From Halostella litorea (GTDB lineage Archaea > Halobacteriota > Halobacteria > Halobacteriales > Natronoarchaeaceae): DNA of 64,000 nucleotides. Made by a program: the position numbers and the translations under genes. Of this stretch, positions 6,779 through 35,262 are shown one piece after another (position 1 is the stretch's first letter; the number at the start of each line of letters is the position of its first letter). A model generated the notes under the pieces. It did not search any database. It saw only the letters and a list, made by a program, of their open reading frames with translations, and was not told where the DNA came from. The DNA lies in the NCBI RefSeq assembly GCF_004785955.1, contig NZ_ML214300.1, positions 885,789-949,788 of the forward strand, given 5' to 3'.

Positions 6779-6830
6779 CGCGCTACGCCGCCGGCCGGAC
6801 GCACCGCTGGGAAACGAGTTCCGAAGAAGC

Positions 6831-6902
6831 GCCCGAGGCGGGATTTGAACCCGCGTCACGACCGTGACAGGGTCGTATGATGGGCCACTACACCACCCGG
6901 GC
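6831..6902 (-). tRNA. tRNA-Asp (GTC), copy 1
   Basis: 72-nt cloverleaf on the minus strand. The acceptor GCCCGGG pairs with CTCGGGC (one G-T), the anticodon loop is CTGTCAC giving anticodon GTC, and the T-arm GCGGG TTCAAAT CCCGC is standard. No CCA is encoded. A TATA-like TTAATAAG lies at about 6933-6940 on the coding strand's upstream side. The sequence is identical to the copy at 7508-7579. Confidence 0.96.
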
Positions 6903-7435: not shown

Positions 7436-7507
7436 GCGACGACGTTGCCGCGTCCCGGTACTTGAACGCCCGGACGGGGCGCTACGGCGTTCGTTCGTCG
7501 CAAAAGC

Positions 7508-7579
7508 GCCCGAGGCGGGATTTGAACCCGCGTCACGACCGTGACAGGGTCGTATGATGGGCCACTACACCACCCGGGC
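7508..7579 (-). tRNA. tRNA-Asp (GTC), copy 2
   Basis: A 72-nt minus-strand gene identical over its whole length to the copy at 6831-6902 (anticodon GTC, same arms, no encoded CCA). Sequence identity ends at the gene boundaries on both sides. An upstream TATA-like AAGTCTTAAGG lies at 7611-7620. The two copies form a 72-bp direct repeat enclosing about 605 bp. Confidence 0.96.
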
Positions 7580-9675: not shown

Positions 9676-11508
9676 ATGAGCCAGCAACAACAGCGAGAGG
9701 CCAAGGTGTACGTCAACGGGAGCCTGGTCGGGACCCATCCGGACCCGCACCAGCTCGCCGAACAGATCCGGGAGGCGCGCCGCCGCGGCGACGTCAGCGA
9801 GATGGTCAACGTCTCCGTGAAGGACCGCACGCGCGAGGTCATCGTCAACGCCGACGCCGGGCGGGCGCGCCGCCCGCTGCTCGTCGTCGAGGACGGCGAG
9901 ACGCTCATCTCCGACGAGGAGATCGAGGCCGTCAAGGAGGGCAGCCTCGACTTCGACGACCTCGTCGACCACGGCTACGTCGAGTTCATCGACGCCGAGG
10001 AGGAGGAGGACATCTACGTCGCGGTCGACCGCGAGGACCTCAACGCCGACCACACGCACCTGGAGATCGACCCGCAACTCATCTTCAGCATCGGCTCGGG
10101 CATGATCCCGTACCCCGAGCACAACGCCAGCCCCCGGATTACCATGGGCGCGGGGATGATCAAGCAGTCGCTGGGCCTGCCGGCGGCGAACTACCGCATC
10201 CGGCCGGACACGCGCCAGCACCTCCTGCACTACCCGCAGCTCTCGATGGTCAAGACCCAGACCACCGAGCAGATCGGCTACGACGACCGGCCCGCCGCGC
10301 AGAACTTCGTCGTCGCCGTCATGTCCTACGAGGGGTTCAACATCGAGGACGCGCTGGTGATGAACGGCGGCTCGGTCGACCGCGCGCTCGCCCGCTCGCA
10401 CTTCCTGCGGACCTACGAGGGCGAGGAACGGCGCTACCCGGGCGGTCAGGAGGACCGCTTCGAGATCCCGAGCCAGGACGTCCGCGGCGCGCGCGGCGAG
10501 GACGCGTACACGCACCTCGACGACGACGGCCTGGTCAACCCCGAGACCAAGGTCGACGAGAACAGCGTCCTGCTCGGCAAGACCAGCCCGCCCCGGTTCC
10601 TGGAGGAGCCCGACGACATGGGCGGGCTCAGCCCGCAGAAACGCCGCGAGACGAGCGTGACGATGCGCAGCGGCGAGAGCGGCGTCGTCGACACCGTGAC
10701 GCTGATGGAGGGCGAGGACGGCTCGAAGCTCTCGAAGGTGTCGGTGCGCGACGAGCGCATCCCGGAACTCGGCGACAAGTTCGCCTCCCGGCACGGCCAG
10801 AAGGGCGTCGTCGGCCACATCGCGCCCCAGGAGGACATGCCGTTCACCGAGGAGGGGCTCGTGCCGGACCTCATCCTCAACCCGCACGCGCTGCCGTCGC
10901 GGATGACGGTCGGCCACGTGCTGGAGATGATCGGCGGGAAGGTCGGCGCGCTGGAGGGCCGCCGCGTCGACGGCACCCCCTTCACCGGCGAGGACGAGGA
11001 CGAACTCCGCGACGCGCTCTCCGAGAAGGGCTTCAAGTCCAGCGGGAAGGAGATCATGTACTCCGGCGTCACCGGCGAGAAGATCGAGGCCGAGATATTC
11101 GTCGGGACGATCTTCTACCAGAAGCTGTACCACATGGTCTCGAACAAGCTGCACGCCCGCTCGCGCGGGCCGGTGCAGGTGCTCACCCGCCAGCCGACCG
11201 AGGGCCGCGCCCGCGAGGGCGGCCTCCGCGTCGGCGAGATGGAACGGGACGTGCTCATCGGGCACGGCGCGGCGATGGCGCTGAAAGAGCGGCTGCTCGA
11301 CGAGTCCGACCGCGAGTTCATCCACGTCTGTGGCAACTGCGGGATGAGCGCGGTCGAGAACGTCGAGCAACAGCGCGTCTACTGTCCGAACTGCGGCGAG
11401 GAGACGGACGTCCACGAGATAGAGATGAGCTACGCGTTCAAGCTCCTGCTAGACGAGATGAAGGCGCTCGGCATCGCGCCGCGACTTGAACTGGAGGACG
11501 CAGTCTAA
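9676..11508 (+). CDS. rpoB1: DNA-directed RNA polymerase subunit B'
   Basis: A 610-residue C-terminal half of the B subunit (Rpo2C). Seen: the [15 protein letters not shown] segment, catalytic-centre Lys/Arg region and hybrid-binding domain, and a C-terminal zinc site CGNCG...CPNCG. The ATG at 9676 follows the B'' stop after one base and gives the usual start with [14 protein letters not shown]; an in-frame upstream start within B'' was discarded. Its stop is one base before the A' start codon. Confidence 0.97.
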
Positions 11509-31454: not shown

Positions 31455-31526
31455 GGGCTCGTAGATCAGTGGCAGATCGCTTCCTTCGCAAGGAAGAGGC
31501 CCCGGGTTCAAATCCCGGCGAGTCCA
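31455..31526 (+). tRNA. tRNA-Ala (CGC)
   Basis: 72-nt cloverleaf: acceptor GGGCTCG with CGAGTCC (one G-T), D-arm GATC/GATC, anticodon stem CTTCC/GGAAG with loop TTCGCAA (anticodon CGC, reading GCG), T-arm CCGGG TTCAAAT CCCGG. No encoded CCA and no intron. Its 3' end marks the start of an AT-richer accessory segment, as expected for an integration hotspot, but I found no second copy of the 3' end within 3 kb. Confidence 0.95.
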
Positions 31527-31715
31527 TACCGGATTTCTTACATTTCGAGTTCCCCGCTTAGTCCCCTCTACAGGGTACTGGCGCGGAATCTTACAACACC
31601 AGTCAAGGAAACAGAAACACCTCTCCGGAGTGAGTCCTGTAGGAGCCGGCTTCCACCCCGACGCCGTCCCGGCCTCAGTCGAAGGATCCACTCCTGAAGA
31701 TGCGAAGAAAACGAG

Positions 31716-32102
31716 GTGGTCAACGTGAGCCACGACGCTCACGCCGCCGCGAGAGCGCCGTCGAAGAACTGCCTCAACTGCGGCGCACGCGCATCCAAAC
31801 GCTTCCGGCGTGTCCACGGAGACCAAGACGACCGCGCGCACCGCTGCCCCGAGTGTGACTGCTGGGCACGCCTTCACGCGGGTTCCGCTGCCGGACGCGA
31901 CGTCGGTTAACTGGTCGCCGCTGCTCGGCAGGTTCTCCAGCGCGAAGACCTCACGCTCGAGCAACGTCGAGAGATCGCCGAGAGTCTGTCAACCCGCGCC
32001 GTCGAATTCGATGTCTCGGCCGAGGTGGCCGTTGAAAAAGATCCGTTACCATGTGGAGTTCTGGATCACTTGGTCGCAGGATCCAAAATTCTCCGGCAGT
32101 AG
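31716..32102 (+). pseudogene. Zinc-finger gene interrupted by an in-frame stop (DUF7563-like)
   Basis: The first part (31716-31910, 64 residues from GTG) has a small zinc-ribbon pattern, CLNC...HRCPEC, with RASKRFRRVHGDQDD between the pairs, similar to tiny haloarchaeal DUF7563-type proteins (family name from memory). It stops at TAA 31908-31910. The same frame then stays open to TAG 32100-32102 and encodes a plausible acidic helical stretch (LQREDLTLEQRREIAESL, VEFDVSAEVAVEKDP). Either one longer gene was broken, or a short zinc protein is followed by the tail of another gene. No ATG is found for the second part. Confidence 0.45.
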
Positions 32103-32168
32103 GTGATTGTAGTTCTGATCTATCGGAAAAGGACGATAGATCACAAGGACGCGGGATCGCAACCAGAC

Positions 32169-33656
32169 CTAGCTCCAAGCCACAATCCCATCTGCGCTGA
32201 ACGTGTAGAGTGTCCCATCAGCAACAGCGATATCGGAATGAGATTCCACAGGTCCGAAGGAGCCTTTGACATCCCCGTTTTCGCGATCGATTACCGCGAC
32301 TTCAGAGTTTTCACGCTCTTGTGATGGCCTGACGTGAGCGTAGAGATGGTCATTATCGACGATCATGGGGGTAAACACACGAGCGTACGTTCCAATCTGG
32401 GATCGCCATACTACGGAGCCATCGCTCCGATCTAATGCAACGAGGTTATGTCCAGTATAGAGCTGTTCTCGCCACCTCTCGGTGTCTTCCTGTGAAATTG
32501 TCATGTCCTCCGGAGTCAAAAACCCAAGTCCGTAATAGACGTGGTCGCGGTCGACCGTCACAAACGATGTACCGCCAGCACCAATAGCGTCATCGATAGC
32601 GTCTGTCTCATACGCGTGTGTCCACTGTTCACTCCCATCCTCGATCGATAGAGCGTATATCTTCCGGTCCGGTATGCCCAGAGCTTCGGCGGTGTCCTCG
32701 CGGGAACTCCTCTGGGAAATATACACAGTATCGTCAACTATCGTCGGTATCGGAGATATCGAATGAGCTATTTCTTCCGTCCACTTTACCGACCCGTCCT
32801 CCGTATTCAGAACGGTCAGTTGCTTATTTCCGTCAGACCCAGCGACCCCGGAATTATACACTGCAATCGCGTTGTTCCCGACAGATGGAATCAGCTGGTT
32901 GGGAGAGATCTCTCGGCTCCATTTTTCACTCCCATCAGACGTTGAAACCGCGAGTACCTGTCCTTCGGTAAAGACGTACAATACACCATCATGGACCACT
33001 GGATAATATCCACCATGTGCTACTCCAGGAAAGTCTGTTTGCCAACCTATCTCTCCGTTTTCCCGCGACAGCGATGCGAAGTGGAGTTTTTCGCTGTCCT
33101 CACTGCTACTGCCCCAAACTACATATAGATTGTTCGGACCGAGACACCTAGTCGGCGACCGGGTCGCATCGGATCGGACCCCACCCTCTTGTTCAACGAT
33201 AGTACGCCGCCAGCGCTCGCTCCCATCTTCGCGGGAGAGCGAATATGCATACAGTTTGAATTTCGGGGGGTCACTTTCATATGGGGACGCATTCCCCGAG
33301 ACCTCATACATCGCATTGTCCCCGATTAGCGGTGCTAGGGGGTTCTGGGGTAAAATAATTCCATCTCGAAGTGAGGCGGTGAAGCTATGAGTTGCGTCAG
33401 CAGTCGGTCCACCGGATAAACTGAGCCCCGCGTTTGCTGACGATCCGTGTCGACTGGGCCATTCAGATGTCCCCAATTTCGATTCTTCTGAATCCGATTC
33501 GGAGTCCCCGGATTCTGATGTATTCACCATCGATTCTTCTGAATCCGATTCGGGGCTCTCGGAGCCTGATGAATCTGTACTCTGACATCCGGCTAGCAAT
33601 CCGATCCCGGCACTACTGGCCAGCAAAAACTCCCTCCGAGATCCATGGTATCCCAT
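32169..33656 (-). CDS. Tat-exported PQQ-like beta-propeller lipoprotein
   Basis: A 495-residue surface lipoprotein. The Tat motif RREFL (residues 7-11) and lipobox LAGC (Cys about residue 24) give a folded, lipid-anchored exported protein. Residues about 28-65 are a Ser/Glu/Asp-rich linker with an internal repeat. The rest is a PQQ/BamB-like eight-bladed propeller with repeated DGSEKW, DGSVKW and DGSVVW motifs and 'VYIS/LYVF' strands. No dehydrogenase residues are certain; a ligand-binding or scaffolding role is as likely. DNA is clearly less GC-rich than its neighbours, suggesting recent transfer. A TATA-like TTTATTGG lies about 28 bp upstream. Confidence 0.8.
   Translation of the reverse strand: MGYHGSRREFLLASSAGIGLLAGCQSTDSSGSESPESDSEESMVNTSESGDSESDSEESKLGTSEWPSRHGSSANAGLSLSGGPTADATHSFTASLRDGIILPQNPLAPLIGDNAMYEVSGNASPYESDPPKFKLYAYSLSREDGSERWRRTIVEQEGGVRSDATRSPTRCLGPNNLYVVWGSSSEDSEKLHFASLSRENGEIGWQTDFPGVAHGGYYPVVHDGVLYVFTEGQVLAVSTSDGSEKWSREISPNQLIPSVGNNAIAVYNSGVAGSDGNKQLTVLNTEDGSVKWTEEIAHSISPIPTIVDDTVYISQRSSREDTAEALGIPDRKIYALSIEDGSEQWTHAYETDAIDDAIGAGGTSFVTVDRDHVYYGLGFLTPEDMTISQEDTERWREQLYTGHNLVALDRSDGSVVWRSQIGTYARVFTPMIVDNDHLYAHVRPSQERENSEVAVIDRENGDVKGSFGPVESHSDIAVADGTLYTFSADGIVAWS
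33481..33553. repeat. Two direct 22-bp repeats in the lipoprotein linker
   Basis: The 22-bp unit beginning GATTCTTCTGAATCC occurs at 33481-33502 and 33532-33553, inside the Ser/Asp/Glu-rich linker of the lipoprotein gene. It encodes an ESDSEES-type repeat on the minus strand and looks like an in-gene duplication that can change linker length. Confidence 0.75.
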
Positions 33657-33975
33657 GCGAAAATGACTGAATAAATAGAGTCCAATAAATTCTTTCTTCT
33701 ATACCAACATGAGCGACAGCCTTCAACTCCAACGCGTACGTGGATGACCGCATCCACACTCACTAGAATGTGTTCTTAAAATCCAGCCTTTTCGCCCAGT
33801 CTGGGCACTTACTCCAGTTCCTGTCTGGGTGGGACTATCTAAGATGGAGGTGATTTCCTGAAATACCAATGGATTGAATTCATCGACATCTATGGTTGGC
33901 GACTTTCGTTTAGTATAGAAAAAACGATGACGGCGCGCAGGCGCTGGAAGGTGGAAGCGCACCGTGCGGGCAGCT
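33657..33975. other. 319-bp intergenic stretch without a supported gene
   Basis: AT-richer sequence between the divergent-facing start of the lipoprotein gene and the end of the aminotransferase gene. It contains the lipoprotein promoter (TATA-like CCAATAAAT, 33682-33690). A 79-codon minus-strand frame at 33723-33962 has no recognisable domain or good start context and is not annotated. Confidence 0.6.
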
Positions 33976-35136
33976 TTACAGGAGCGCGGTTTCGACGCGC
34001 TCCCCGAGTTCCTCCAGCCGTTCGACGGGTTCGTTGCTGAACACGATCCGGACGTACTGGTCGCTGTTCTCGTCGCCCCAGTGGCGCATCGGCGTCGCGG
34101 CGACCTTGCTCTCCTCCAAGAGGAGGTCCGACGCGGTCGCGGAGTCGTAGCCCAGTTCCTCGACGTTCATCAACTGCATCCAGCCGCCCTTCGAGGGGAT
34201 CGTGGTGACGCCGACGTCCCGGAGCTGTTCGGTCACGGTGTCGCGCCGCCGCTGGAGTTCGGGGACGTACTCGGACGGTTCGAAGTCGGACTCGAGGGCC
34301 GCCAGCGCCCCGGCCTGCCCGATCCCGCCCGGCGTCGTCGTGTTGTAGATGTGCGTTCGGGCGGCGTCGTCCATGAACTCCTCGGGGCCGACGACCCAGC
34401 CGACGCGCCAGCCGATCATGCCGTAGGACTTCGTGACGGAGCCGGCGATCACCGTCCGCTCGGCCATCCCCGGGATGGAGGACGGGTGGATCAGCGGGAG
34501 GTCGTCGAACAGGACGGACTCCCAGATGGCGTTGTAGAGCAGCCAGACGTCGTGTTGCTGGCAGACCTCGCTGATGGTCTCCCACTCGTCGCGGTTCAAC
34601 ACGGCCCCGGACGGCATCGACGGGTTGACCAGCAGGAGGACCTCGGTGTCGTCGGTGACTGTCTCGCGGAGCGCGTCGACGTCGAGCCGCCACTCGTCGC
34701 CGGCGTTCTCGTAGGGGACGAACGACGGCTCCCCGCCGGCAAGGCGCGTCCGGTTTATCATGCCGGCGTAGATGGGGTCGGTGAGGACGACCTCGTCCCC
34801 GGGGTCGATCATCGCGAGCAGCGAGTCGAGCACGCTCTCGCCCGTGCTACAGGTGATGACGACGTTCTCGGCGTCGTAGTCGTGGCCCGAGCGCTCGTTG
34901 GTCTGCTCGGCCACGGCCGCGCGGAGGTCCTCCTTGCCGATGAACGGGAGGTAGCTGTTGGCGTCGAACGTACCGACGGCGTCCCGGGTGGCGGCTTTCA
35001 CCTCCTCGGGCAGGAGTTCCGCCATCAGGTTCACGTCGAGGTTCTCGAGGCGCAGGACCTCCGGGTCGTCACCGGCGGCGTCGGCGACGTCGTCGATGTC
35101 GAACCCGGGGACGTCCTGTAATCGGTCAGTTGTCAT
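33976..35136 (-). CDS. Fold-type I aminotransferase-like protein with altered PLP-site residues
   Basis: A 386-residue protein of the class I/II aminotransferase family. The Schiff-base lysine is present as Lys236 in SVTKSYGMIGWRVGW, with Arg244 in the usual phosphate-side place. Three normally fixed residues differ. The NPxNPTG loop reads NPSMPSG (Met174 for Asn). The DExY motif after VWLL reads YNAIWE, so the Asp that pairs with the PLP ring nitrogen is Asn202 and the Tyr is Trp205. The ATG at 35136 follows a TATA-like CTTTGTATC. It may be a lyase, racemase or specialised transaminase; substrate unknown. Confidence 0.8.
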   Translation of the reverse strand: MTTDRLQDVPGFDIDDVADAAGDDPEVLRLENLDVNLMAELLPEEVKAATRDAVGTFDANSYLPFIGKEDLRAAVAEQTNERSGHDYDAENVVITCSTGESVLDSLLAMIDPGDEVVLTDPIYAGMINRTRLAGGEPSFVPYENAGDEWRLDVDALRETVTDDTEVLLLVNPSMPSGAVLNRDEWETISEVCQQHDVWLLYNAIWESVLFDDLPLIHPSSIPGMAERTVIAGSVTKSYGMIGWRVGWVVGPEEFMDDAARTHIYNTTTPGGIGQAGALAALESDFEPSEYVPELQRRRDTVTEQLRDVGVTTIPSKGGWMQLMNVEELGYDSATASDLLLEESKVAATPMRHWGDENSDQYVRIVFSNEPVERLEELGERVETALL

Positions 35137-35262
35137 ACGTTGACAGTGGCCAGTACGCGGATACAAAGTTCTTTTCCGATTTCTAACAATATTTATCAAC
35201 TCCATCCCGTCAGGAGCCGACCGCACCGGCAGGTTTTCGCCCCGCGAGGCGTATCACCGGGC

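Follow-up and report, generated by a model that had tools for sequence, protein, structure and literature searches.

An aminotransferase-fold protein with replaced PLP contacts, carried in a haloarchaeal insert, belongs to a wider family that may run another reaction

What does a protein with the fold of an aminotransferase do when the residues that contact the ring of its cofactor have been exchanged? The question is raised by a gene in the window, the whole stretch of 64,000 nucleotides from the haloarchaeon Halostella litorea that was analysed here, for whose product replaced pyridoxal phosphate (PLP) contacts and possibly a reaction other than transamination had been predicted from the letters of the DNA. 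The features on which the argument turns are these:

33976 to 35136, minus strand: coding sequence for a fold-type-I aminotransferase-like protein with altered PLP contacts, 386 aa, ATG at 35136
34615 to 34617, minus strand: codon of Met174 (in ordinary relatives an Asn that contacts the PLP ring)
34531 to 34533, minus strand: codon of Asn202 (in ordinary relatives the Asp that protonates the PLP pyridine nitrogen)
34522 to 34524, minus strand: codon of Trp205 (in ordinary relatives Tyr)
34429 to 34431, minus strand: codon of Lys236, the Schiff-base lysine, kept
34405 to 34407, minus strand: codon of Arg244, the phosphate-binding Arg, kept
34048 to 34050, minus strand: codon of Arg363, the Arg for the substrate carboxylate, kept
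31455 to 31526, plus strand: tRNA-Ala (CGC), at whose 3' end the accessory segment starts
31527 to 35223, no strand: accessory segment with the family gene and the gene of a PQQ-repeat lipoprotein; genome G006 of the same genus (locus L156) has the flanking genes without it
32169 to 33656, minus strand: PQQ_2 beta-propeller lipoprotein, carried by that segment, with a GC content of 52.6%

The Pfam profile PF00155 (Aminotran_1_2) matches the protein at 177.1 bits against a cut-off of 19.7, in a genome that holds ten such matches, and its AlphaFold2 model (pLDDT 94.0, pTM 0.93), like that of a bacterial relative considered below, has the standard architecture of fold type I, with Z about 49 to two solved aminotransferases; both models are of monomers without ligand. 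The nearest of these structures are the DapC-like aminotransferase Rv0858c of M. tuberculosis (2o0r, Z 49.7 over 379 residues) and the aromatic/aspartate aminotransferase of Pyrococcus horikoshii (1dju and 1gd9, Z 49.4 to 1gd9 over 377 residues), with which the window protein has in common the Lys, the phosphate Arg and the carboxylate Arg, but at 28-30% identity and with the Asp, Tyr and Asn contacts and several residues of the substrate shell replaced. Translation of the minus-strand frame confirms that Lys236 and Arg244 are kept, and with them the residue numbering of the original prediction. Among the features of a class I aminotransferase the sequence thus has Lys236 and Arg363 and lacks the N1 Asp, the ring Asn and the ring Tyr, whose places are taken by Asn202, Met174 and Trp205. 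A shift in the alignment that would restore the Asp, raised at the outset as a way for the claim to fail, was looked for and rejected: the region aligns to solved aminotransferases without a gap, with Asp under Asn202 and Tyr under Trp205, and a subgroup of the protein's own family has Asp in that very column.

How unusual these exchanges are can be judged from ordinary PF00155 relatives, of which 35 were tried and 34 retained (L005 gave no match), 6 from the same genome, 27 from genomes of the same phylum and 1 from a plasmid. At positions 174, 202, 205, 236, 244 and 363 they have Asn, Asp, Tyr, Lys, Arg and Arg in 34 of 34 cases, so the claims that Asn202 stands for Asp, that Trp205 stands for Tyr and that the loop NPSMPSG places Met where Asn belongs all hold. 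Passages of the literature agree with these controls, describing the Asp as conserved in aminotransferases, where it keeps N1 protonated, and the ring-contacting Asn and Tyr as about 90% conserved in class I (PMC9309667), and stating that Lys, Asp and Arg are invariant across the alignment of the superfamily (PMC5986058). Further shell positions that are near-fixed in the controls are changed in the family to which the window protein belongs (Gly33 to Leu, Pro35 to Thr, Tyr320 to Ser, Gly350 to Met and Phe353 to Trp), the window itself having Val35 and Met320. It is well supported by these sequence comparisons that the protein is probably no ordinary aminotransferase.

That family is bacterial for the most part of what was sampled. 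Plasmid records contain bacterial relatives of the window protein at 38-48% identity, and a scan of genome contigs with the patterns LRLENLD[TV][DN] and [RG]MIGWR[VI]G gave 476 relatives, the best 80 of which were kept as loci. The alignment had 86 rows (the window and 85 others), or 82 once four sequences shorter than 370 aa (L041, L043, L070 and L093) were dropped. Owing to the scan patterns, Arg244 and both motifs are partly selected for, and positions 174, 202, 205 and 236 are unselected. In the 82 members, position 174 is Met in 51, Phe in 14, Ile in 13, Thr in 2, and Leu and Val in one each, and in none is it Asn; position 202 is Asn in 43, Asp in 24, Trp in 13 and Leu in 2, a share of Asn that is biased towards the window by the choice of the best 80 of 476; and position 205 is Met in 68, Phe in 7, Leu in 4, and Trp, Ala and Tyr in one each. 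Lys236 is present in 67 of 82 and replaced by another residue in 15, and no member that has Asn or Asp at 202 lacks it (67 of 67). Position 244 is Arg in 78 and Lys in 4, and Arg363 is found in 82 of 82. In another 21 loci, some of which may come from genomes already in the count, position 174 is always Met or Ile, 202 Asn or Asp, 205 Met and 236 Lys.

The Asn/Trp/Met triple, suggested as a search key for homologues, is accordingly real in the window and fails as a rule of the family, in which what stays constant is the absence of Asn from position 174 and of Tyr from position 205 (with the exception of the 1 Tyr in 82); Trp205 itself occurs only in the window and in its relative from Haloarchaeobius sp. 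FL176. The marks that do define the family are 174 not Asn, 205 not Tyr, LRLENLD, MIGWR, Trp319, Trp353 and Arg363, all of which the window has. No characterised member was found in PDB sequences, NCBIfam or the open-licence literature, and two annotated members (L038 and L039) are labelled 'pyridoxal phosphate-dependent aminotransferase'.

In a tree made by a quick method and with long outgroup branches, the family is monophyletic with respect to eight ordinary aminotransferases (SH-aLRT 100), and at position 202 its starred branches force at least three changes per label between Asn and Asp. The dN/dS value is 0.04 between the window and the FL176 copy and 0.08-0.17 in six pairs of Lys-bearing members. 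Taken as sequence evidence, these values and the alignment indicate that the replacements are real, family-wide and maintained by purifying selection. A few copies look damaged: that of the M. avium plasmid pP7a (L041, 5800-6905) has split frames and lies beside IS3-family transposases, and two from Gemmatimonadota (L164 and L175) each have one in-frame TAA.

By the labels of the tree, which covers the best 80 of 476 contig relatives, the family spans about 15 bacterial phyla, and it is sparse wherever it was counted, with the centre genome included: 3 of 396 genomes in Actinomycetota (E 1e-130) and, at E 1e-110, 19 of 200 in Gemmatimonadota, 3 of 398 in Pseudomonadota and 1 of 149 in the order to which a Saprospiraceae member belongs. 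The only archaeal members among those sampled are in the window's genome and in FL176; in the window's order the family is present in 1 of 195 genomes (E 1e-60) and in its genus in 1 of 5, in both cases the window's own. The archaeal pair is placed outside the bacteria on a branch with a support of 81, unstarred, so that the direction of transfer is read from the distribution, by which the gene most likely came to its haloarchaeal host by lateral transfer. The FL176 copy is 93% identical to that of the window, has unrelated flanks and is without its first 64 residues, the missing N-terminal part not being found within its locus, L043. An IS-like element with matching inverted ends (L043, 8040-9030) abuts residue 65 of that gene. 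Given this truncation at an IS boundary, the archaeal gene may be in the course of being lost.

In the window the family gene is cargo of a segment inserted at tRNA-Ala. The original prediction had put the gene at the border of an accessory segment, and the comparison with G006 bears this out, as about 31527-35223, directly behind the tRNA, is missing there. The order in G006 is EF-1alpha, rpsJ, rhomboid, tRNA-Ala, GATase, two sulfatases and an RNase-like gene, names that were given by eye except for GATase and the tRNA. No att-like repeat of the tRNA 3' end was found at the far border of the segment at up to 3 mismatches. Several smaller observations belong to this region. The PQQ-repeat lipoprotein (32169-33656) has its 52.6% GC in a window of 70% GC, and relatives of it were found in 2 of 193 other genomes searched in the class. 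The tRNA-Ala differs from its G006 copy (L156, about 10654-10725) on both sides of the anticodon stem in a compensated manner, as though the tRNA had been partly exchanged. To the eye, the short stretch 31700-31920 inside the insert resembles part of a small protein rich in cysteine, of zinc-ribbon-like type. Elsewhere in the window, two tRNA-Asp genes with the same anticodon (6829-6902 and 7506-7579) are separated by about 600 bases.

What reaction, then, might such a protein carry out? It is plausible that the window protein runs a reaction other than transamination. The reading we favour, and to which we would give an even chance, is that a branch with a rebuilt shell still binds PLP, has taken up a non-transaminase chemistry at Calpha and was carried by lateral transfer into the insert linked to tRNA-Ala. 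The family would be an uncharacterised monophyletic branch of fold type I in which both the cofactor shell and the substrate shell have been rebuilt, with all three polar ring contacts lost in the window protein. In its Lys-bearing members PLP would still be linked to Lys236 as a Schiff base, gripped by the phosphate cup and stacked on Tyr123, and the substrate would be an amino acid with its carboxylate on Arg363. With Asn at 202, N1 would be unprotonated, and O3' would be without its Asn and Tyr partners; the quinonoid electron sink that fast transamination needs should consequently be weak, and the likeliest chemistry would be a Calpha reaction that makes little demand on such a sink, such as alpha,beta-elimination, retro-aldol cleavage or racemisation. 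The interchange of Asn and Asp at 202 can be argued to mean that the family's reaction does not depend on N1 protonation. The same facts, Asp in 24 of 82 and several switches between the two residues, leave room for the view that Asn202 may simply be permitted there, without having been selected for an unusual reaction.

Among PLP enzymes, alanine racemase and the lyases of fold type II function while the pyridine nitrogen is unprotonated, but these have different folds and an Arg or Ser at N1 where the window protein has Asn. A comparison within fold type I is offered by the D168 mutants of the L-threonine aldolase of Aeromonas jandaei, in which Asn replaces the N1 Asp and aldol chemistry remains, although they are engineered, much slower and otherwise normal in their active site, and the aldolase is no relative of the window protein at the level of the family (PMC5986058). 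In that work the D168N exchange takes kcat/Km for L-allo-threonine down from 1.7e4 to 20, and the enzyme is much slower and not redirected; the D168 mutants still form the external aldimine and form no internal aldimine, and the authors regard aldol chemistry as less reliant on N1 protonation than transamination (PMC5986058).

A different possibility, which we hold to be doubtful though worth serious attention, is that the family has freed itself from PLP, and that what has been rebuilt around Arg363 is a small-molecule pocket that would serve to bind or sense a ligand or to run a reaction through a lysine imine. The strangest members of the family are in fact not the window protein but are elsewhere, in a bacterial clade without the Lys, which on this reading would be the end state. 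All 15 of the members without Lys236 have Trp or Leu at 202 and form one clade of single origin (SH-aLRT 97), hereafter the W clade, which keeps the phosphate Arg, Arg363, Tyr123 and the family-specific pocket residues and is under purifying selection, with dN/dS of 0.06-0.18 in nine pairs, similar to the Lys-bearing pairs. An AlphaFold2 model of one such protein, L107, has the same fold (pLDDT 91.9, pTM 0.91). The idea that W-clade proteins pair as subunits with a Lys-bearing copy was considered and rejected: 36 of the 80 contig loci were checked, and each of the 36 genomes has one family copy, so none of them has an active copy beside which these proteins could be companions or dead partners. 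We infer that in the Lys-less clade the same pocket is put to use without PLP, and, the O3' contacts being gone in all clades, it is conceivable, at the same modest level of belief, that the family at large is leaving PLP and that the pocket around the carboxylate Arg is its conserved business end. Against this, Lys236 in 67 of 67 members outside the W clade and Arg or Lys at the phosphate position in 82 of 82 are hard to explain without a Schiff base to PLP. If the departure from PLP were real, the Lys-less clade would be a PLP-free enzyme or receptor derived from a PLP enzyme.

It is unlikely that the protein is simply an ordinary, perhaps slow, aminotransferase that accommodates Asn or Asp, Met and Trp at these positions. 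The closest solved structures and most of the matching NCBIfam models are aminotransferases, and Asp recurs in 24 of 82 members; however, the equivalents of Asn and Tyr are replaced across the family while all contacts are kept in the 34 controls, and the conservation of these residues in class I and of Lys, Asp and Arg in the superfamily, as stated in the passages cited above (PMC9309667; PMC5986058), argues in the same direction. The match to the DapC-like model PRK07777 (NF005855) is at 205.8 bits, under its equivalog cut-off of 553. A PLP cyclase akin to GntC or VioD, forming a ring derived from arginine, seems very improbable. GntC, the L-enduracididine cyclase (NF041364), shares fold type I and has a non-transaminase chemistry; it is the window protein's best NCBIfam match and is matched by 82 of 82 members with E up to 0.001, but the window's 228.1 bits lie under the equivalog cut-off of 415, and GntC, in the passages of its description, keeps an Asp (D186) for N1 protonation (PMC10367076). 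A decaying pseudogene whose contact residues have drifted is barely credible for the window copy, for although it lies in the insert of one archaeon and its FL176 counterpart is cut at an IS boundary, its frame is full-length, the dN/dS to that counterpart disfavours decay and replacements of the same kind are found in intact bacterial members.

The N1 Asp and the Lys are termed invariant in this superfamily by the literature (PMC5986058; PMC9309667). In this natural family the former varies among Asn, Asp and Trp, and one clade has dropped the latter. It offers natural variants with which to ask what each PLP contact is for, and new amino-acid chemistry can probably be found in it.

The genes around the family members might have been expected to name a substrate, but no conserved partner emerged among 120 near and 121 far genes, where the commonest Pfam families reach 3 of the near and at most 4 of the far; nor were PLP-family genes clearly commoner near than far. 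The near set leaves out a family-fragment ORF in L070, and the gene calls, taken as longest ORFs, are noisy in high-GC loci. Single loci, read by eye and with Pfam, have a Cys/Met PLP enzyme (L061 and L082), a threonine-dehydratase-like PALP protein (L111), a PALP protein, which we take to be OrtB, with pyrroline-5-carboxylate reductase (L053), arginase and PhzF (L047), an Asp/Glu racemase (L112) or a gamma-glutamyltranspeptidase (L059), as well as FCD-GntR and other HTH regulators. One neighbouring ORF (L081, 4171-5610) encodes an aldo/keto reductase fused to a RidA (Ribonuc_L-PSP) domain, and relatives of it lie near the family gene in 12 Gemmatimonadota loci.
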